From positions 7,280,001-7,344,000 of the forward strand of contig NC_019738.1 of assembly GCF_000317515.1 (NCBI RefSeq): a stretch of 64,000 bases of DNA. The letters run 5' to 3'. Origin of the DNA: Allocoleopsis franciscana PCC 7113. GTDB lineage: Bacteria; Cyanobacteriota; Cyanobacteriia; Cyanobacteriales; Coleofasciculaceae. A program made the translations under genes and the position numbers. Positions within the stretch are counted from its first letter, which is position 1, and the number at the start of each line of letters is the position of its first letter. Below the pieces are notes generated by a model. That model did no database searches. It was not told the origin of the DNA and was given only the letters and a program-made list of their open reading frames with translations. Positions 53,381 through 63,536 of this stretch are shown here, one piece after another.

Positions 53381-54331
53381 CTAGGCGAGAGGTTTAGGAA
53401 CCATACCCAGTCGTTCTAACATTTCTTCATCGTGAGAGCGAGTTGGGTTCGGTGCAGTTAGCAGGACAGGGCCGGTAAAGATCGAGTTAGCACCGGCAAG
53501 CATACACAAAGCCTGTAATTCGTCACTCATCTGCACCCGACCGGCGGAAAGGCGCACCATGGCTTTAGGAAATAAGATGCGGGTGGTTGCGATCGTTCGC
53601 ACTAGCTCAATCGAATCAATCGGTGAAGCATCTTCTAAGGGAGTGCCTTTGACCGGAATTAAGCAGTTAATTGGAATGGATTCTGGAGCTGGATCAAGTC
53701 TACCAAGGGCTTCGAGTAATTCAAGACGGTCTTGCAGGGATTCTCCCATACCGAGAATGCCACCGCAGCAGACGGAAATTCCAGCCGAACTGACGGCTTG
53801 GATCGTTTCTAAGCGGTCTTTGTAGGTGCGCGTCGTGATGATTTGATCGTAATAGGAGGGCGAGGTATCCAGATTGTGATTGTAAGCTTTTAGTCCAGCC
53901 GCTTTGAGACGTTCAGCTTGGTGAGGCTTGAGCATACCTAAAGTACAACAGACTTCCATGTCGAGAGCGGCTACCTGGCGCACCATTTCCAGAACGCGCT
54001 CAAACTGGGGGCCATCTTTGACTTCTCGCCAAGCGGCACCCATGCAAAACCGTGTGGAACCATTGGCTTTCGCCGCTTGTGCCTCGGCTAGCACCGCTTC
54101 AACACTCATTAATTCTTGCGGGACGAGTCCTGTTTTGTTGCGAACACTTTGGGAGCAGTAGGCACAGTCTTCAGGACAGGCACCTGTTTTGATGTTGCAG
54201 AGGGTGCAAAGCTGAACGGCGTTGGGGTCGTGGTGTTCCCGGTGGGTGCGTTGAGCCTCGAAGAGAAGATCGGGTAGGGGCTGGTGGTAGATTTGCGTGA
54301 TGCGATCGCGCGTTGCGGACATGGTAGACAT
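53381..54331 (-). CDS. bioB: Biotin synthase
   Basis: 316 residues. BioB inserts sulfur into dethiobiotin, the last step of biotin synthesis. The radical-SAM [4Fe-4S] cluster motif is C-x3-C-x2-C in GACPEDCAYCSQ. The [2Fe-2S] ligands include the Cys in ARVQMS-type strand regions, with R in VRLSAGRVQM. YNHNLDTSPSYY and CCGGILGMGES are further family marks. Length is usual. It is monocistronic, with heptamer repeats after it. Confidence 0.96.
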   Translation of the reverse strand: MSTMSATRDRITQIYHQPLPDLLFEAQRTHREHHDPNAVQLCTLCNIKTGACPEDCAYCSQSVRNKTGLVPQELMSVEAVLAEAQAAKANGSTRFCMGAAWREVKDGPQFERVLEMVRQVAALDMEVCCTLGMLKPHQAERLKAAGLKAYNHNLDTSPSYYDQIITTRTYKDRLETIQAVSSAGISVCCGGILGMGESLQDRLELLEALGRLDPAPESIPINCLIPVKGTPLEDASPIDSIELVRTIATTRILFPKAMVRLSAGRVQMSDELQALCMLAGANSIFTGPVLLTAPNPTRSHDEEMLERLGMVPKPLA

Positions 54332-54675
54332 TTAAGCTGGGGGTCAAGTGGAAGCGACTTTTATGCTCCTAGTCAAGATTACCAGCCCGATCGCCCTGAG
54401 TTCTAAAAGTTATGTTCAACGGGTTATGTTGTAAATACTTTTCTAGTTTCTCTCTTGCCTAAGGTGATAGCTATTCCCATCGGTTGATGATGCCATAGTT
54501 TCAACCTGAGCTGATCAATGAGTGAGATACTCAACTAGATTAAAATCAGAGCAGTAAGTTACGTGCTTAACTTGCGAACTGCTATTGTCCTGATCCCGTG
54601 ACGGAAGCCAACTATATTTAGGTATTGGCTGATTTTGCATCTACCTTTAAATAGTTTTTTTGAAATCTTTAGAAG
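54332..54675. other. Divergent intergenic region, bioB / receptor kinase
   Basis: 344 bases holding the promoters of bioB and of the receptor kinase. An AT-rich stretch lies just before 54676. No gene, RNA or clear operator is seen. Confidence 0.4.
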
Positions 54676-57450
54676 ATGTTCAATATGGTAGTAGCAGAAT
54701 TTTTTATTCCCCACGGACATTGCTATCTCTGGAAGCCTGGGTTAGTAGGGTTGCATGTTGTATCAGATGCTTTGACAGCGCTAGCTTATTACTCAATTCC
54801 GCTAATCCTAATTTATTTCGTCACTAAGAGACGAGATGTACCCTTCAACTGGATTTTCCTATTATTTGGTGCCTTCATCATTTCTTGTGGCACCACTCAC
54901 ATTATGGAAATCTGGACGCTTTGGCATCCAAACTATTGGTTATCGGGTTGTATCAAAGCGTTTACTGCCATTGTCTCCATCTATACGGCGAGTGAGCTAG
55001 TCTCGTTACTTCCCCAAGCCCTAGCACTTCCTAGCACCGCCCAACTTGAAAAGGAAATTCGAGAACGCCAAAAAGCAGAAGCGGCATTGTTAAGGGAGAA
55101 AAACCACCTTGCTCAAGCGCAAAAAGTCGCCCATGTAGGAAGTTGGGAATTCGACTTAACGACTCAAGAGATTGCGTGGTCTGATGAAACCTTCCGGATT
55201 TACGGTCTCACGCCAGGACAACCAACACCAACCCTGATTGAACATCGACAAAAGATTCATCCAGAGGATGGAACGGTTTGGGAGACAACGGTTAACGAGC
55301 TTGTGGTCGGAAAATCTGGCGAATTGGAGTTTCGGATTGTGCGACCTGACGGTCAAGTCCGGCATATTTTGGCTCACGGAGAACCGATTTTTAACGCCGA
55401 CGGTCAGGTTTATAAGCTATTTGGGACAGTACTGGATATTAGCGATCGCATCGTAGCCCAACAGCGAGAACGATTAGTCGGAGAAATTGCCCTCAAGATT
55501 CACCACTCCCTAGAGCTCGATGAAATTCTCAATACCACCGTCACGGAAGTTCGGCAGTTTCTCGAAACTGACCGGGCGCTGATTTACCGCTTCAATCCTG
55601 ACTGGAGTGGGTATATTGCCGTTGAATCAGTAGGTGCTGACTTTCTATCAGTTCTAGACATGACCATCAATGACCACTGCTTTGGCTCATATTACGCTCA
55701 ACTTTATCAGCAAGGTCGAGTCAGAGCGATCGCTAATATTTATACAGAAGGTCTACAACGTTGCCACATCGAATTACTCGCACCCCTTCAAGTCACTGCC
55801 AACTTAATCGTCCCGATTCTCTTGGGCGAAAAATTGTGGGGTCTATTGATTGCCCATCACTGTCGAGGTGAAAGGAACTGGCAGTCTTATGAGATCGAGC
55901 TATTGCAGCAGCTAGCAACACAAGTGGCGATCGCTCTCCAGCAGTCGGAACTCTATTCTAGGGTGCAGGCGGAACTCGTTGAGCGGCAACGGATCGAGCA
56001 AGAGCTACGCATCAGTGAAGAGCTATACCGTTCCGTCGTGACGGCAATGTCTGAGGGAATTGTACTTCAACAGGTGGACGGTCGGATTACGGCCTGCAAT
56101 GCTAGCGCCGAACACATCTTGGGACTTCCAGCCCAAGAGATATTCAAACGAACCTCAATTGACCCGCCATGCTGGCAAACGATTTACGAAGATGGATCAC
56201 CCTTCCCTGGTGAACTGCATCCCGCGATGGTGACCTTACGCACAGGCAAACCCCAGTCTAACGTGATTATGGGTATCCGCAAACTGGATGGAGCGCTCAT
56301 CTGGATTGCGATTAATTCCCAACCGCTGTTTCACCCAAAAGAAACCCAACCCTATGCCGTCGTCACCTCATTTTCTGACATCACCGACCGCAGGATAGCT
56401 GAAGAGGCGTTGCGATCGCTCACCCAGCAAGAACGAGAGAGAGCGTTGCAACTAGAACAAGCCTTGAAACAACTCCAACACACCCAAGCCCAGTTGGTGC
56501 AGAATGAAAAAATGGTCAGTTTGGGTCAGCTAGTGGCAGGAGTGGCTCACGAAATCAACAACCCCACAAGCTTCATTTACGGCAATATCTACGTGGCGAG
56601 TGATTATGCTCAAGACTTGCTGCACCTGATCGAACTTTATGCCAAGCACTACAAAGAACCAGTTGCAGAAATTGCCGAATACATAGAACGCATTGACATA
56701 GATTTCATCGTTGAAGATTTCTCAAAACTGCTAGCCTCGATGAAAGAAGGCGCTCACCGGATTAGTGAGATCGTGCAGTCCCTACGGAACTTCTCCCGCC
56801 TTGATGAAATGGAGTGCAAGCCGGTCGATATTCATCAAGGTATTGATAACACCCTGCTCATCCTAAAGCACCGATTGATACAACAATTTTTTAGTGCTGA
56901 TGGAGCGGCTTCGCAAGAGCTAACGGGATGCGATAGCATTGGCGGCTCTGAGATTCAAGTCATTAAAGAGTATGGTGAACTGCCCTTAATCGAGTGTTAC
57001 CCAGGGCAGCTTAATCAGGTCTTTATGAATATCATCAGCAATGCCATTGATGCGTTGGCAGATGATCATGGGTCATCAATTATTGATCATGGAGAAGAAA
57101 GTTCCAATCACCGATTACCCATTACCAATTACCAATCACCAACGATTTATATTCACACTGAAGTCGTTGACCAGAATTGGATAGTCATCCGCATTGCTGA
57201 CAACGGTCTTGGCATAAAGGCAGAAGCTCAACCAAGGATATTTGACCCGTTTTTTACGACCAAACCACCAGGAAAGGGGACGGGCTTAGGATTGTCGATT
57301 AGCTACCAGATTGTAGTAGATAAACACGGGGGTCAGCTTAGGTGTCATTCAGTCCCAGGTCTTGGGACTGAGTTTGTGATTGATCTGCCAATTAGCCGAA
57401 GCTGTAGTGGGATTGAGCAACGCGCACTAGCAGAATTGCACTCGCATTAG
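54676..57450 (+). CDS. Ethylene-receptor-like / cyanobacteriochrome hybrid histidine kinase
   Basis: 924 residues. Three membrane helices (about 24-115) form an ETR1-type ethylene-binding domain. D31, Y38, I41, I68, C71 and H75 match the six functional Arabidopsis ETR1 residues D25, Y32, I35, I62, C65 and H69 at a constant offset of 6; C71/H75 would hold Cu(I). A PAS domain (about 150-260) follows. A GAF domain (about 270-425) has the chromophore Cys in QRCH (C363-H364) and a DXCF motif DHCF (C335) 28 residues earlier, the spacing of two-Cys cyanobacteriochromes. A second PAS, HisKA (VAHEINNP) and HATPase complete it. The plan matches Synechocystis Slr1212 (SynEtr1/UirS). Two odd in-frame insertions lie in the kinase part. 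Confidence 0.93.
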   Translation: MFNMVVAEFFIPHGHCYLWKPGLVGLHVVSDALTALAYYSIPLILIYFVTKRRDVPFNWIFLLFGAFIISCGTTHIMEIWTLWHPNYWLSGCIKAFTAIVSIYTASELVSLLPQALALPSTAQLEKEIRERQKAEAALLREKNHLAQAQKVAHVGSWEFDLTTQEIAWSDETFRIYGLTPGQPTPTLIEHRQKIHPEDGTVWETTVNELVVGKSGELEFRIVRPDGQVRHILAHGEPIFNADGQVYKLFGTVLDISDRIVAQQRERLVGEIALKIHHSLELDEILNTTVTEVRQFLETDRALIYRFNPDWSGYIAVESVGADFLSVLDMTINDHCFGSYYAQLYQQGRVRAIANIYTEGLQRCHIELLAPLQVTANLIVPILLGEKLWGLLIAHHCRGERNWQSYEIELLQQLATQVAIALQQSELYSRVQAELVERQRIEQELRISEELYRSVVTAMSEGIVLQQVDGRITACNASAEHILGLPAQEIFKRTSIDPPCWQTIYEDGSPFPGELHPAMVTLRTGKPQSNVIMGIRKLDGALIWIAINSQPLFHPKETQPYAVVTSFSDITDRRIAEEALRSLTQQERERALQLEQALKQLQHTQAQLVQNEKMVSLGQLVAGVAHEINNPTSFIYGNIYVASDYAQDLLHLIELYAKHYKEPVAEIAEYIERIDIDFIVEDFSKLLASMKEGAHRISEIVQSLRNFSRLDEMECKPVDIHQGIDNTLLILKHRLIQQFFSADGAASQELTGCDSIGGSEIQVIKEYGELPLIECYPGQLNQVFMNIISNAIDALADDHGSSIIDHGEESSNHRLPITNYQSPTIYIHTEVVDQNWIVIRIADNGLGIKAEAQPRIFDPFFTTKPPGKGTGLGLSISYQIVVDKHGGQLRCHSVPGLGTEFVIDLPISRSCSGIEQRALAELHSH

Positions 57451-57518
57451 GCGCATCACGCAAGGCGCACCACTCGCAGGCGATCGCTTTTCTTCTTGTA
57501 AAATTTTCTATCCCTCGC

Positions 57519-57550
57519 TTGATTCTCCAGTCGGCTGGAGAATGCAACAT
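57519..57550 (+). promoter_or_regulatory. MerR-family-type promoter of the copper ATPase gene
   Basis: A -35 box TTGATT (57519-57524), a dyad TTCTCCAG-TCGG-CTGGAGAA (57523-57542) filling an overlong 20-bp spacer, and a weak -10 box CAACAT (57545-57550). MerR-family metal regulators bind such dyads in 19-20-bp spacers and twist the DNA. A second promoter of the same design precedes the chaperone gene. The regulator is not in the window. Confidence 0.65.
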
Positions 57551-57616
57551 AGTCTTAGATGCAAGTTAGATAGAGCCTTGCATGAGGAATGGATGTCTTA
57601 AATCAGGAGAGACGCG

Positions 57617-59878
57617 ATGGATAACGCAACGCTCAAACTCCGAGGGATGAGTTGTGCCTCTTGTGCAAACAGTATCGAAGAGACAATTAGCTTAGTGCCA
57701 GGGGTTGAAGAATGTCAGGTCAACTTTGGTGCAGAACAAGCCACTGTTACCTATGACCCCCAAAAAACAGACTTAGAAGCCATTCAGAATGCCGTCGATG
57801 CAGCAGGATACTCTGCCTACCTCCTCCAGGAACAAGACTTGTTGAGTGGGGACGATGATGCGGAAAAAGCGACTCGTCTCGCTGAGTCGCGTGCCTTGAC
57901 AGGTAAGCTTTGGGTGGCTGGCATCATCAGCATACTGCTAGTTGTTGGCTCACTACCACTGATGACGGGACTCAGTCTACCCTGGCTCCCAACCTGGCTG
58001 CACAATCCTTTGTTGCAGTTAGTGCTGACAACACCCGTGCTGTTTTGGTGTGGGGTATCGTTTTTTATTAATGCCTGGAAAGCTTTCAAACGCCACGCGG
58101 CAACGATGGATACATTGGTAGCAATTGGTACAGGTTCCGCCTATCTTTATTCTCTTTTTCCTACCTTTTTTCCTGAATTTTTCACAACTCAAGGATTACC
58201 GGCTGATATTTACTATGAAGCCGCTACCGTCATCGTCACTCTGATTTTGTTGGGACGATTGTTAGAGAATCGCGCCAAGGGACAAACGTCAGAAGCCATC
58301 CGTTCTCTTGTGGGATTGCAAGCTAAAACGGCTCGTGTCATTCGCCAGGGTACAGAGGTCGATATTCCCATTGCTGAAGTGGTGGTGGGAGATGTAATTC
58401 TGGTTCGTCCGGGCGAAAAAATTCCGGTGGATGGAAAAATTGTTGATGGCTCCTCAACGATTGATGAGGCAATGGTAACGGGTGAAAGTGTGCCCGTGAA
58501 AAAACAAACAGGTGATGAAGTTATTGGAGCTACGATTAACAAAACTGGCAGCTTTAAGTTCCAAACCACACGAGTTGGAAAAGATACATTCCTAGCTCAA
58601 ATTGTGAAATTAGTACAGCAAGCACAAGGCTCTAAAGCACCCATTCAACGATTGGCTGATAAAGTGACAGGATGGTTTGTACCTGCTGTGATTGCCATTG
58701 CGATCGCTACTTTCATAATCTGGTACAACATCATGGGGAATGTCACGATGGCGTTAATCACAACCGTGGGCGTTCTCATTATCGCTTGTCCCTGTGCGCT
58801 GGGTTTAGCCACACCTACATCAATCATGGTAGGTACAGGTAAGGGGGCAGAAAATGGCATCCTGATTAAAGGTGCAGAAAGTCTTGAACTGGCACACCAA
58901 TTGCAAACGATTGTTCTCGACAAAACAGGTACTATCACTCAAGGCAAGCCGACTGTAACTGACTTCGTAACAGTCAATGGTACAGCCAATAGTAATGAAC
59001 TCAAACTTTTGCGTTTAGCGGCATCTGTTGAACGGAATTCAGAACATCCCTTGGCTGAAGCGGTTGTGCAGTATGCTCAATCCCAAGGTGTGGAATTAAC
59101 TGATTCACAGAAATTTGAAGCCATAGCAGGTAGTGGTGTACAAGGCTATGTATCGAATCAATTCGTGAAAATTGGGACGCACCGTTGGATGACTGAATTA
59201 AGCATTGATACAAGCGCTTTGCAAACACATTGGGAGCGATTAGAATACCTCGGTAAAACCGTAATTTGGATAGCAGTGAATGGCAAAATTCAAGCCATTA
59301 TGGGCATTACCGATGCTGTGAAATCTTCTTCTGTCAGTGCAATTCGTAGTTTACAGCGCATGGGATTGTCCGTAGTTATGTTAACTGGAGATAATCGCCG
59401 TACTGCTGAAGTCATTGCGCGTGAAGTGGGGATTAAACGAGTCTTTGCCGAAGTTCGTCCAGATCAAAAAGCTGCAACGGTTGAGAAACTTCAGTCTGAA
59501 GGGAAGATTGTGGCAATGGTGGGCGATGGTATCAACGATGCACCCGCTTTGGCACAAGCCGATGTTGGTATGGCAATTGGAACGGGAACCGATGTTGCAA
59601 TTGCTGCTAGTGATATCACCCTGATTTCTGGAGATTTACAAGGTATTTTTACCGCGATTCAACTGTCTCGCGCCACGATGCAAAACATCAAACAAAATCT
59701 ATTCTTTGCCTTCATCTACAACGTAGCAGGAATTCCGATCGCAGCCGGCATTCTTTTCCCTATTTTTGGTTGGCTGCTCAGTCCCATTATTGCAGGTGTA
59801 GCCATGGCTTTTAGTTCTGTCTCCGTTGTTACAAACGCCCTGCGTCTGCGTAATTTTCAACCCAAAACCCTAGGTTAA
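57617..59878 (+). CDS. copA: Copper-transporting P1B-type ATPase
   Basis: 753 residues. An N-terminal HMA metal-binding domain has MSCASC. The membrane copper site is CPC in [13 protein letters not shown]. Phosphorylation motif DKTGTIT, the SEHPLAEA (HP) locus of P1B pumps, the actuator TGES and hinge [11 protein letters not shown] are present. The final helices carry the [16 protein letters not shown] pattern of Cu(I) pumps. It could export copper (CopA) or load thylakoid proteins (CtaA/PacS). It lies after the ethylene-receptor-like kinase and 30 bases before a cupredoxin gene. Confidence 0.96.
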
Positions 59879-59908: not shown

Positions 59909-60448
59909 ATGTCTAAGAAGGTTACGTTTTTTGGGACATTAGCGGTATTCGGATTTTTGTTAGGGGTAATTTCAGGAGCAATTGCCGCAGAAATACCGAC
60001 TGAACACTCTAATACATCTACCCAAAGAACAACTCAATTCCGACGGATCGAACAACCATTAAGTAACAAAGTTGCGGTTACTCTTGGTGGATTAGGATTA
60101 ATTGGGTTAGAACTTTGGTGGTTCAAATTCAATAAGCCAAAGTCTCAGAAAGCCGTGGCAGCCGATGGAGGAATTCAAGAAGTGGCTGTTACCGTCGATG
60201 GTGGCTATGAGCCGAGTCGTATTGTAGTGCAAACTGGTCAACCTGTGCGGTTAAACTTCTTCCGTAAAGACAAAAGCAGTTGTTTGGAACAGGTACTTAT
60301 TCCAGATTTTCACATCGCCGTTGATTTACCGCTTAATGAAGTGACGGCGGTGGAGTTTACACCTGAACAAACGGGAGATTATGTTTTTACCTGCGGCATG
60401 AATATGTTTCGCGGTTCCATAGAAGTACAGGAATCTAATACTGGCTAA
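59909..60448 (+). CDS. Membrane-anchored cupredoxin-domain protein
   Basis: 179 residues. A hydrophobic segment at about 7-27 and another at about 54-70 surround a short Ser/Thr/Gln-rich stretch, so it is anchored or has a signal plus one helix. Residues about 90-175 form a cupredoxin-like domain (VTVDGGYEPSRIVVQTGQPV) with candidate copper ligands Cys, His, Cys and Met (SSCLEQ, FHIAV, TCGMNMF). It probably accepts or buffers copper outside the cytoplasm. It starts 30 bases after copA, so it is in the same operon. Confidence 0.88.
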   Translation: MSKKVTFFGTLAVFGFLLGVISGAIAAEIPTEHSNTSTQRTTQFRRIEQPLSNKVAVTLGGLGLIGLELWWFKFNKPKSQKAVAADGGIQEVAVTVDGGYEPSRIVVQTGQPVRLNFFRKDKSSCLEQVLIPDFHIAVDLPLNEVTAVEFTPEQTGDYVFTCGMNMFRGSIEVQESNTG

Positions 60449-60547
60449 AAAGACACGGGTGGGAAGAAGCTGATATGGAGACTAATCATAGATAATTCTT
60501 GCTGCGAAACAGGTCTACCAAACAGGCAAAAGTTTTTTCGTTACCCC

Positions 60548-60579
60548 TTGACTCTCCAGCCAACTAGAGATTTTAAGAT
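60548..60579 (+). promoter_or_regulatory. MerR-family-type promoter of the chaperone pseudogene
   Basis: A -35 box TTGACT (60548-60553), dyad CTCCAG-CCAA-CTAGAG (60554-60569, one mismatch), and -10 box TAAGAT (60574-60579) after a 20-bp spacer. The sequence and geometry match the promoter upstream of the copper ATPase gene. Confidence 0.65.
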
Positions 60580-60611
60580 AAATTTAGAAGTAAATGAGAT
60601 GATTGACAGCT

Positions 60612-60806
60612 ATGACACTACAACTCAAGATTCCCAAATAAGCTTGCTCTGCTTGCGTCAAAACTGTAACAGAAGCCATCAAAACCGTTGATACTAATGC
60701 CACCATTGACGCCAATGTCAAAACTCAAGTGGTGAGCATCCAAACTCAATCATCCGAAGCAGCAATCAAAGAAGCAATTGCTGATGTTGGATATCCAGCT
60801 ACCTAA
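60612..60806 (+). pseudogene. Copper chaperone (HMA domain) gene broken by TAA
   Basis: Sixty-five codons, reading MTLQLKIPK, then a TAA at 60639-60641, then ACSACVKTVTEAI...ADVGYPAT and TAA at 60804. The second part is a complete HMA (Atx1/CopZ-like) core with the CSAC metal motif, in the same frame. Either a nonsense change killed the gene, or read-through or restart is used, or the base is a sequencing error. There is no start codon directly after the TAA. The promoter upstream is still intact. Confidence 0.85.
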
Positions 60807-60928
60807 TTAGTTCAGATTGTTCTACATTTTCTTTTTGAGCAGAACAAACTATGTTTGGGTTGGGTCAACTGTAGGTTAAGTTGCTTAGAGTTGACCCATG
60901 AAATCAAGTTGATGCCATTCCCTGATTA

Positions 60929-61435
60929 CTAGTTACCCTGCTGACGCTGTTGCCGTTGTTGTTGCCACTGTGAGCGCATTTGCTCCATTTGTTGCCGCTG
61001 CTCAGGTGTCAGAACTTGAGACATGCGGGATTTTTGTGTTTCCATAATTTCTTTGATTCTGGCTTGCTGCTCTGATGTCAGGTTCAGGGATGCCATCATG
61101 CCCCCGCGCCGTCCTTGTCCTTGACGAGCTTGTCTTTGACCGTTTTGCCCCTGACGGTTTTGCTTCATCGTTTCCATCTGTGCCCGTTGCTCTGGGGTGA
61201 GGACAGCTTCAATCTGGGCGCGAGTCTCTTGCTTGATTTGACGCATTTGCTGTTTTTGAGCATCACTTAGATTGAGCTTCGCCCATTTACCTTCTTTACC
61301 TTGACGTTGCCCTTGTTGTGCCTGTGCTAGCAATCGCTGTGCGGATGGGTTAGCTTGGGCGTTGACGGCGAAGGGAGCTGCAACAGCACCAAGAACAAGT
61401 ACTCCCGCTAGCATTGGCATCAGTTTGATTTTCAT
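60929..61435 (-). CDS. Spy/CpxP-like LTxxQ periplasmic protein
   Basis: 168 residues with a signal peptide (MPMLAGVLVLGAVAAPFAV, cleavage after NAQA). The mature part is Gln/Arg-rich, almost all helix, and internally duplicated: NLSDAQKQQM with VLTPEQRAQM, then NLTSEQQARI with VLTPEQRQQM. The LTxxQ motifs are those of Spy and CpxP, periplasmic chaperones and stress sensors. It is divergent from a two-component system and near copper genes, which fits envelope or metal stress (inference). Confidence 0.88.
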   Translation of the reverse strand: MKIKLMPMLAGVLVLGAVAAPFAVNAQANPSAQRLLAQAQQGQRQGKEGKWAKLNLSDAQKQQMRQIKQETRAQIEAVLTPEQRAQMETMKQNRQGQNGQRQARQGQGRRGGMMASLNLTSEQQARIKEIMETQKSRMSQVLTPEQRQQMEQMRSQWQQQRQQRQQGN

Positions 61436-61620: not shown

Positions 61621-62823
61621 GTGAGCCGTCCCATCCAAGTCCAAAATCATCCCTTTCGATTTCTACTCTACCTAGAGTGGATGCTGCTATTCGTTGCTAT
61701 TTTTACTGAACTTATCCCTTCCCCCCATCAACGAATTTTTCGCTTACCAGAGCTAACTGTTTCGCTAATTATTGGCTTTGGGTTGATAGGCTTGCGATTA
61801 CCCACAGGTAAGCTGCGTTACAAGGTTCTCTATACAATCCTAGAAGTTTTCCTGATTTTACTCACCTCAATTACAGGGGGAAGAACAGTCCGACTTTTTC
61901 CTTTACTCTATCTAATTGTGGTGACTCGCAGTTGCTTAATCTTTCAACTGCCCGGTCGTTTGATGGTGACGAGTTTATCGTTTTGTTTATTTTTGCTCAC
62001 CTTACTCCGCCGCTTTCAACGTATACCCACATCACCCCTTTTACAGGAGCGATTACAGTTTTTTATTCTCGGATATGCGCTCTTATTTGGATTAACGTTC
62101 GTATTTGTCTTACTATCGATGAATTCAATGGTTGCCGAGCGTCAGAGCCGAGAAAAACTAGCGATCGCCAATGAAAAACTGCGGCAGTACGCCCTACGAA
62201 TTGAAAATCAAGCCATCCTCCAAGAGCGAAACCGCATTGCCCGTGATATTCATGATTCTCTAGGACATTCCCTAACCGCACTCAATATTCAGCTCGAAAC
62301 CGCCCTAAAGCTTTGGCAATCCAATCCTGACAAAGCGAAAACCTTTTTAGCACGGGCGAAAGACCTGGGTTCTCAATCGCTCCAAGAGGTACGACAATCC
62401 GTCTCTACTATGCGTTCTGACCCCGTGCAAGGGCGTCCCCTCGAAGATGCGATCGCCGATTTAGCAGAAGAACTTCACCGCTCAACGGGTATCTCTCCCA
62501 CTTGTCGCCTGCTTGTCACCCGTCCCCTCCCGGCTGAGTTGCACACGGCTGTCTACCGAATTGTACAAGAATCATTGACAAATATTTGTAAATATGCAGA
62601 AGCAAGCGAAGTCAAAATTCAGCTACAAGCCACTACACACGAGCTGAACTTAATTATTCAGGATAATGGCAGAGGATTTAATGTAGAAACCAATACAACG
62701 GGTTTTGGCCTACAAGGGATGCGGGAACGCACTTTGGCATTGGGGGGTCAGTTGCTGATTGAAAGTCAACCCGGTGCTGGTTGCCAAATTAACGCCCATT
62801 TTCCCTTACCCCACCAACTATAA
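61621..62823 (+). CDS. NarL-type sensor histidine kinase (HisKA_3)
   Basis: 400 residues from GTG 61621; the N-terminus HPFRFLLYLEW is typical for the cyanobacterial group, which favours this start over ATG 61681. Several hydrophobic helices (about 12-30, 42-58, 70-86, 100-118, 140-162) make a membrane sensor without a large periplasmic loop, so it may sense the membrane. The HisKA_3 His is in RIARDIHDSLGHSLTALN; the HATPase has IVQESLTNICKYAEA, QDNGRGF and GFGLQGMRERT. It is followed 44 bases later by its likely regulator. Confidence 0.92.
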   Translation: MSRPIQVQNHPFRFLLYLEWMLLFVAIFTELIPSPHQRIFRLPELTVSLIIGFGLIGLRLPTGKLRYKVLYTILEVFLILLTSITGGRTVRLFPLLYLIVVTRSCLIFQLPGRLMVTSLSFCLFLLTLLRRFQRIPTSPLLQERLQFFILGYALLFGLTFVFVLLSMNSMVAERQSREKLAIANEKLRQYALRIENQAILQERNRIARDIHDSLGHSLTALNIQLETALKLWQSNPDKAKTFLARAKDLGSQSLQEVRQSVSTMRSDPVQGRPLEDAIADLAEELHRSTGISPTCRLLVTRPLPAELHTAVYRIVQESLTNICKYAEASEVKIQLQATTHELNLIIQDNGRGFNVETNTTGFGLQGMRERTLALGGQLLIESQPGAGCQINAHFPLPHQL

Positions 62824-62867
62824 AAAGAAGAGAAAACTTCATTCTCGATAGCCCTATTTTTACCATA

Positions 62868-63536
62868 ATGCCTGACCCATTAATGACAACTGAACCTATG
62901 AATATGATTCGGATATTACTTGTCGATGACCAGGGTTTAATTCGTCAAGGATTGAGAGCATTATTAGAACTAGAGACGGATTTAGAAGTTGTGGGAGAAG
63001 CGGAAAACGGGCAAAGTGCGATCGCGCTCGTCGAAACATTACACCCCGATGTCGTGCTGCTGGATATTCGGATGCCTGTGATGGATGGAGTCGCTGTCAC
63101 ACGAGAAATTGGTCAACGCTTTACGGACACAAAAGTCTTAGTCCTAACCACATTTGATGATGAACAATATGTCGCACAGGCGCTGCACTATGGGGCAAAA
63201 GGCTATTTGCTCAAAGACACCCCTTCGGAAGAGCTAGCGGCAGCCATTCGAGCCGTTTACAAAGGTTACACTCAACTGGGGCCAGGATTGTTTGAAAAGG
63301 CAATGCCAAAAGTTCCTACTCCTCCTACTAATCCTCCAGATGGTTGGGAACAGTTAACGCCGAGAGAAAAGGAAGTTTTAAAGTTAATTGCAGCCGGAGC
63401 TAATAATCGCGAGATTGCAGAATCGCTCTACATTTCCGAAGGAACCGTGAAAAATCATGTGACACGTATTCTTAATCAGTTAGGTTTGCGCGATCGCACC
63501 CAGGCCGCCATTTTAGCTCACTCCTTTTTACGCTAG
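62868..63536 (+). CDS. NarL/LuxR-type response regulator
   Basis: 222 residues, starting at ATG 62868 (ATG 62898, nearer the fold, is possible). Receiver: IRILLVDDQGLIRQG with the acidic pair, phospho-acceptor Asp in VVLLDIRMPVMDG, Lys in GYLLKDTP. C-terminal LuxR-type HTH: QLTPREKEVLKLIAAGANNREIA and SEGTVKNHVTRIL. It binds DNA as a dimer after phosphorylation by the kinase just upstream; the dyad at 61510-61535 is a plausible target. The pair fits LiaS/LiaR- or NarX/NarL-like systems. Confidence 0.94.
   Translation: MPDPLMTTEPMNMIRILLVDDQGLIRQGLRALLELETDLEVVGEAENGQSAIALVETLHPDVVLLDIRMPVMDGVAVTREIGQRFTDTKVLVLTTFDDEQYVAQALHYGAKGYLLKDTPSEELAAAIRAVYKGYTQLGPGLFEKAMPKVPTPPTNPPDGWEQLTPREKEVLKLIAAGANNREIAESLYISEGTVKNHVTRILNQLGLRDRTQAAILAHSFLR

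Follow-up and report, generated by a model that had tools for sequence, protein, structure and literature searches.

The gene at positions 54676–57450 (forward strand) of the window, by which we mean the whole 64,000-nucleotide stretch of Allocoleopsis franciscana PCC 7113 DNA that was analysed, very probably encodes a SynEtr1/UirS-type sensor histidine kinase, membrane-bound and with two inputs, which acts in trans as an orphan inserted between bioB and copA. This reading is built on the domains and their key residues, on an alignment with TePixJ, and on the lack of the surrounding segment from the nearest sequenced relative, a second genome of the same genus (G001). From these we infer ligand binding, a photocycle, kinase activity, an output in trans and the direction of the insertion. 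The initial annotation had proposed that one protein reads both ethylene and light, as Slr1212 does. Homology bears out the structural half of that proposal, namely a copper site of the ethylene type, a DXCF GAF domain and a kinase in one chain, while the reading of both signals is what such a chain would be predicted to do. The gene clearly enlarges the short list of kinases that join ethylene and light sensing, and shows that one of them can stand as an orphan where two genomes of the same genus differ.

The open reading frame begins with ATG and runs unbroken; the position, strand and length (924 aa) given for it in the initial annotation are exact. Pfam matches along the frame give the order ETR1_N-PAS-GAF(DXCF)-PAS-HisKA-HATPase, all on the forward strand: the ETR1_N membrane domain of the ethylene-binding type at 54742–55029 (residues 23–118, 1e-42), a first PAS (PAS_3, seen also in the AlphaFold model) at 55171–55431 (residues 166–252), the GAF, of DXCF cyanobacteriochrome type, at 55513–55938 (residues 280–421, 8e-26), a second PAS (PAS_9) at 56053–56388 (residues 460–571), the dimerisation and phospho-acceptor domain HisKA at 56521–56808 (residues 616–711) and HATPase_c at 57007–57393 (residues 778–906). 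With scores such as those of ETR1_N and the GAF, the domain assignments are not chance. An AlphaFold model of residues 1–430, built from 33 rows, shows a PAS and a GAF preceded by three long helices at the N terminus (mean pLDDT 83), with a pTM of 0.52, at which the placement of the membrane domain relative to the sensor domains is not readable. A search with Rfam found no RNA families in the 64-kb window.

The helices of the membrane domain span residues 21–51, 58–81 and 87–116 in the model. Six residues had been said to match functional residues of Arabidopsis ETR1 at a constant offset of +6, and D31, Y38, I41, I68, C71 and H75 were all read at those positions; P42 is a further match at the same offset. 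All seven are invariant in the 33-row alignment, and the six copper/ethylene residues are kept in 94 of 96 related ETR reading frames, the exceptions being L127 and L164, a paralogue from the window's own genome. Of the ETR1 positions used for this comparison, D25, C65 and H69 are named in an account of the seven residues that ETR1 requires (PMC11819568). The other positions are those generally listed as functional in ETR1. An ETR1_N domain with its ethylene-binding residues marks the window protein as a putative bacterial ethylene receptor, whose three membrane helices would house a Cu(I) ethylene site. When the ethylene domain was searched by sequence against solved structures no relative was found, the two matches returned (E 0.47 and 0.62) being taken as chance. 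Plant ethylene receptors are not known to have a bilin-binding GAF.

Reading of the GAF sequence confirmed both cysteines described in the initial annotation, C335 in D-H-C-F (codon at 55678) and C363 in C-H (codon at 55762), 28 residues apart. A DXCF cyanobacteriochrome is defined as a GAF with the canonical Cys and a second Cys in DXCF (PMC11284453), and the window GAF, which has the two, is predicted to be one. In a single-sequence search it matched solved cyanobacteriochromes, with 6oap best (2e-56) and 3vv4 at 1.5e-32. A profile of the DXCF-CH stretch, built from ten ETR-linked GAFs, had as its top matches 6p58, 2m7u, 4fof and 3vv4, four closely similar sequences (about 1e-15 to 2e-15) whose DPCF and CH lie in register with the profile. 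We take 3vv4, 4fof/4glq and 2m7u, labelled as methyl-accepting chemotaxis protein in the table of matches, to be TePixJ. Structure comparison also matched the GAF of the AlphaFold model to solved bilin-binding GAF domains (VIA-align rows spanning residues 153–430). TePixJ thus resembles the window GAF in having its DXCF and CH cysteines in register, but it is a chemotaxis-type protein with Pro as the X of DXCF, whereas the window protein is a kinase with His; Pro or Ser occupies this position in all ten of the other aligned DXCF GAFs. We envisage that the GAF would bind phycocyanobilin via C363 and convert it to phycoviolobilin, and that it would alternate between two states, one blue or violet, with C335 attached, and one green.

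In the kinase half, the H box (H625 in AGVAHEINNP) and the N, G1, F and G2 boxes are all present. The HisKA match, at 26.5 bits, is slightly below the Pfam cut-off of 26.9, and HATPase_c matches at 1e-22; with its H box and ATP-binding boxes the protein is a predicted histidine kinase. Both inputs would travel along the PAS domains and helical linkers and set the phosphorylation of H625. By eye, the ATPase region has two in-frame expansions (56890–56955 and 57060–57140), the second of which resembles a repeated ATTACCAATCACC stretch.

The combination of an ethylene-type domain, a DXCF sensor and a kinase is already in print, and the window gene adds another case. By its published description, Slr1212 (UirS/PixA/SynEtr1 of Synechocystis PCC 6803) also has an ethylene-binding membrane domain, a two-Cys GAF and a kinase in one chain; it is reported to be an ETR1-like kinase of two-Cys cyanobacteriochrome type that binds ethylene and has a UV/green photocycle (PMC3546692, PMC5812497), and the idea of a hybrid light-and-hormone receptor is noted as one put forward earlier (PMC3546692). 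GeiEtr2 of Geitlerinema PCC 7105, described as having ethylene-binding, PAS, GAF, kinase and receiver domains and as "reminiscent of SynEtr1" (PMC6682694), shares its domain order as far as the kinase with the window protein. At 1025 aa, however, it carries a C-terminal receiver that the window protein lacks, and the latter has an additional, second PAS.

Ethylene binding by the window protein is a prediction from sequence, and the protein might sense light only, with an active GAF and an ethylene domain that is a mere membrane anchor in this copy. We think this very unlikely: all seven ETR1-type residues are kept, and the pattern to be expected of loss is displayed by paralogue L164 (GGDEF-EAL output), in which the D, C and H positions are gone. 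A non-functional gene, chimeric or in decay, would fit the expansions in the ATPase region, and also the sporadic occurrence of the gene, which has close relatives in 2 of 19 further genomes from the same family (80% and 78% identity over nearly all of residues 3–430). It is nevertheless highly improbable, as the frame is single and open, every catalytic box is present, and a full-length relative exists in another genome (L059, 928 aa, with DPCF and CH, about 78% in the sensory half). In L058, which we take from its identity and layout to be the same record as the 80% relative, G296, the C-terminal half differs; its neighbours are a lone receiver gene and a gene that, judged by eye, is chromate-transporter-like. 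Beyond the window, at least one further co-linear ETR-PAS-GAF match (residues 8–427, 48%) was found among 291 genomes, with up to six candidates scored per genome.

The gene lies in a segment of 3,070 bp (54410–57479) without a counterpart in G001, where 106 unrelated bp are found. Homology between the two genomes covers 54232–54409 at 94% and resumes over 57480–57715 at 86%, and they have in common (82–97% identity) the gene order regulator, HisKA_3 kinase, LTXXQ, cupredoxin, copA, bioB, PhnD-like, ABC, permease. At the syntenic site in G001 the ETR kinase is missing and bioB and copA are adjacent. The simplest reading, on grounds of parsimony, is that a segment carrying the ETR kinase was inserted at the bioB-copA site; loss from G001 instead of gain in the window lineage is a less parsimonious possibility. 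A mobile element bounding the segment was set aside, since no long terminal repeats were seen at its edges. The GC content of the gene, 0.474, is unremarkable beside the 0.466 of the window, and that of the 266 bp upstream is lower, at 0.372.

The usual partner regulator genes were said in the initial annotation to be absent beside the kinase, and there is indeed no receiver-domain gene directly downstream. This does not warrant the conclusion drawn there of a new output path: the kinase lies in a segment missing from G001, and the lack of a neighbouring partner is what would be expected of an inserted orphan. As the kinase has neither a receiver of its own nor an adjoining partner gene, it would have to signal in trans to a receiver from another locus. 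The known partners of Slr1212 are UirR, of the AraC family, and LsiR, of PatA type (PMC3546692), whereas the window kinase has no such neighbour. The first component of a UirS-UirR-LsiR system, an ETR domain, two-Cys cyanobacteriochrome and kinase in one protein, appears to be present, but an AraC-family response regulator was found neither among the gene neighbours nor among the five HTH_18 matches in the genome, which are three whole proteins without a receiver and two short frames. This search used the HTH_18 model, which also matches in 9 of 14 control genomes, and not the UirR sequence. With no receiver-AraC protein of the UirR type among the genome's HTH_18 matches, an output like that in Synechocystis is unlikely.

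Two sets of neighbouring genes were considered as partners. The next gene on the same strand, 166 bp after the ETR kinase (57617–59878), is copA, a copper-translocating P-type ATPase with HMA GMSCASC and CPC motifs that passes the cut-off for copper-translocating ATPases. RAN1 supplies copper to plant ETR1, and one could imagine a working pair here, with the ethylene site receiving its copper from the ATPase, or with copA under the control of the kinase. We find such a pair scarcely credible. This ATPase is found at none of 80 related ETR loci, and no ETR1_N kinase lies upstream of copA in any of the 13 other copA loci fetched (11 with at least 1 kb of upstream DNA, and two on short contigs with less than 1 kb), some of which have kinase-domain-only matches there. 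Furthermore, G001 lacks the ETR kinase yet has the same genes for copA (91% identical), cupredoxin, LTXXQ, kinase and regulator, and copA retains its own palindrome, ATTCTCCAGTCGGCTGGAGAAT, at 57522–57543 (74–95 bp upstream of copA, identical in G001), which is likely to be the copA operator. Copper supply by the adjoining ATPase was dropped on the grounds of neighbourhood conservation and the empty site in G001; copA is an older resident, apparently with its own control site, and not a conserved partner. A similar palindrome precedes copA in L176 and, by eye, in L150, and its placement would suit a MerR-family operator. We give next to no credence to the neighbouring pair of HisKA_3 kinase and LuxR-type regulator (61621–63536) as the partner of the ETR kinase. 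The regulator is the closest response regulator gene, 5.4 kb downstream on the same strand, yet it already has an adjoining kinase of its own, and the pair is kept at 93–96% identity in G001, where there is no ETR kinase. Between copA and this pair, at 59909–61435, a cupredoxin-like gene and an opposite-strand LTXXQ (Spy/CpxP-like) gene form a small copper or envelope-stress cluster that is kept in G001.

Other ETR kinases do have adjoining candidates for output. Of the 93 ETR frames (out of 96) whose downstream DNA extends for 800 bp or more, 45 are directly followed by a receiver-bearing gene and 10 by a cyclase gene, while the window gene has neither; among the 45 are several hybrid kinases that carry a receiver themselves. 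In L161 (from the window genome), L071 and L074, the gene immediately after the ETR kinase encodes a receiver-GAF-cyclase whose GAF is of DXCF type. At L161:5898-10249 the kinase overlaps by a few bases a receiver-GAF(DXCF)-PAS-cyclase gene, an arrangement that would put ethylene and light inputs on adjoining proteins with a cyclic-nucleotide output. Because the window genome has 44 cyclase-domain matches, a single ETR-cyclase adjacency could be chance. At 7 of 80 loci (L060, L061, L063, L064, L066, L112 and L116), a short ETR kinase, an ETR-DXCF hybrid kinase and a receiver-cyclase with a guanylate/adenylate cyclase domain stand in a row; the hosts are Microcoleus, Tychonema, Kamptonema, Lyngbya and another cyanobacterium. 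The middle gene of the trio gave no ETR match in L109, and L136 is a distant version of it. Such receiver-cyclase neighbours suggest a concrete output. A wider scheme can be drawn from the loci where a receiver-cyclase accompanies an ETR kinase and those where the cyclase protein itself carries the DXCF sensor: ETR and DXCF domains would have been joined repeatedly and independently, ethylene and light would be wired to a second messenger, and the window kinase would be mobile and feed a receiver-cyclase in trans, for example that beside the paralogue at 2.52 Mb. Taken as a whole, we consider this scheme rather unlikely.

Returning to the dual-input kinase itself, DXCF fusions account for 13 of 96 ETR frames, leaving out a gapped match in L162 (DDRCAVKKF), a share biased by the use of the window protein's own peptides, one of them DXCF, to fetch the loci. 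In an ETR tree of 129 columns, 14 of 95 rows are DXCF-fused; the starred branches force at least three changes, which could also be one gain and two losses, and the fused rows form one group in 0 of 200 bootstrap trees, with a long-branch warning that includes L212_7629. A GAF tree of 72 rows, with its 18 ETR-fused rows as one label group, forces at least five changes. GAFs from G299 and G001, in proteins where no ETR domain was found (partial loci), share 70% and 68% identity, respectively, with the window GAF, against at most 59% for ETR-fused GAFs outside its own set of orthologues. ETR/DXCF fusions appear to occupy at least three separate places in the tree, which favours repeated assembly over repeated loss. 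If repeated fusion is real, the joint reading of ethylene and blue/green light would be worthwhile in several lineages, and what ethylene tells a cyanobacterium becomes easier to test.

The window genome (G000, loci L158–L165) has eight ETR1_N proteins, seven besides the window kinase, which is the joint highest count listed among the 291 sampled genomes; copper-site residues are intact in seven of the eight. A second of these proteins, at L162:6030-8969, has a bilin-type GAF whose canonical site reads CY and whose insert contains extra cysteines, which by eye suggests an insert-Cys cyanobacteriochrome. In G225, two adjoining ETR-GAF kinases of 869 and 1151 aa are divergently transcribed (L212:4146-11084), the second with four GAF stretches.
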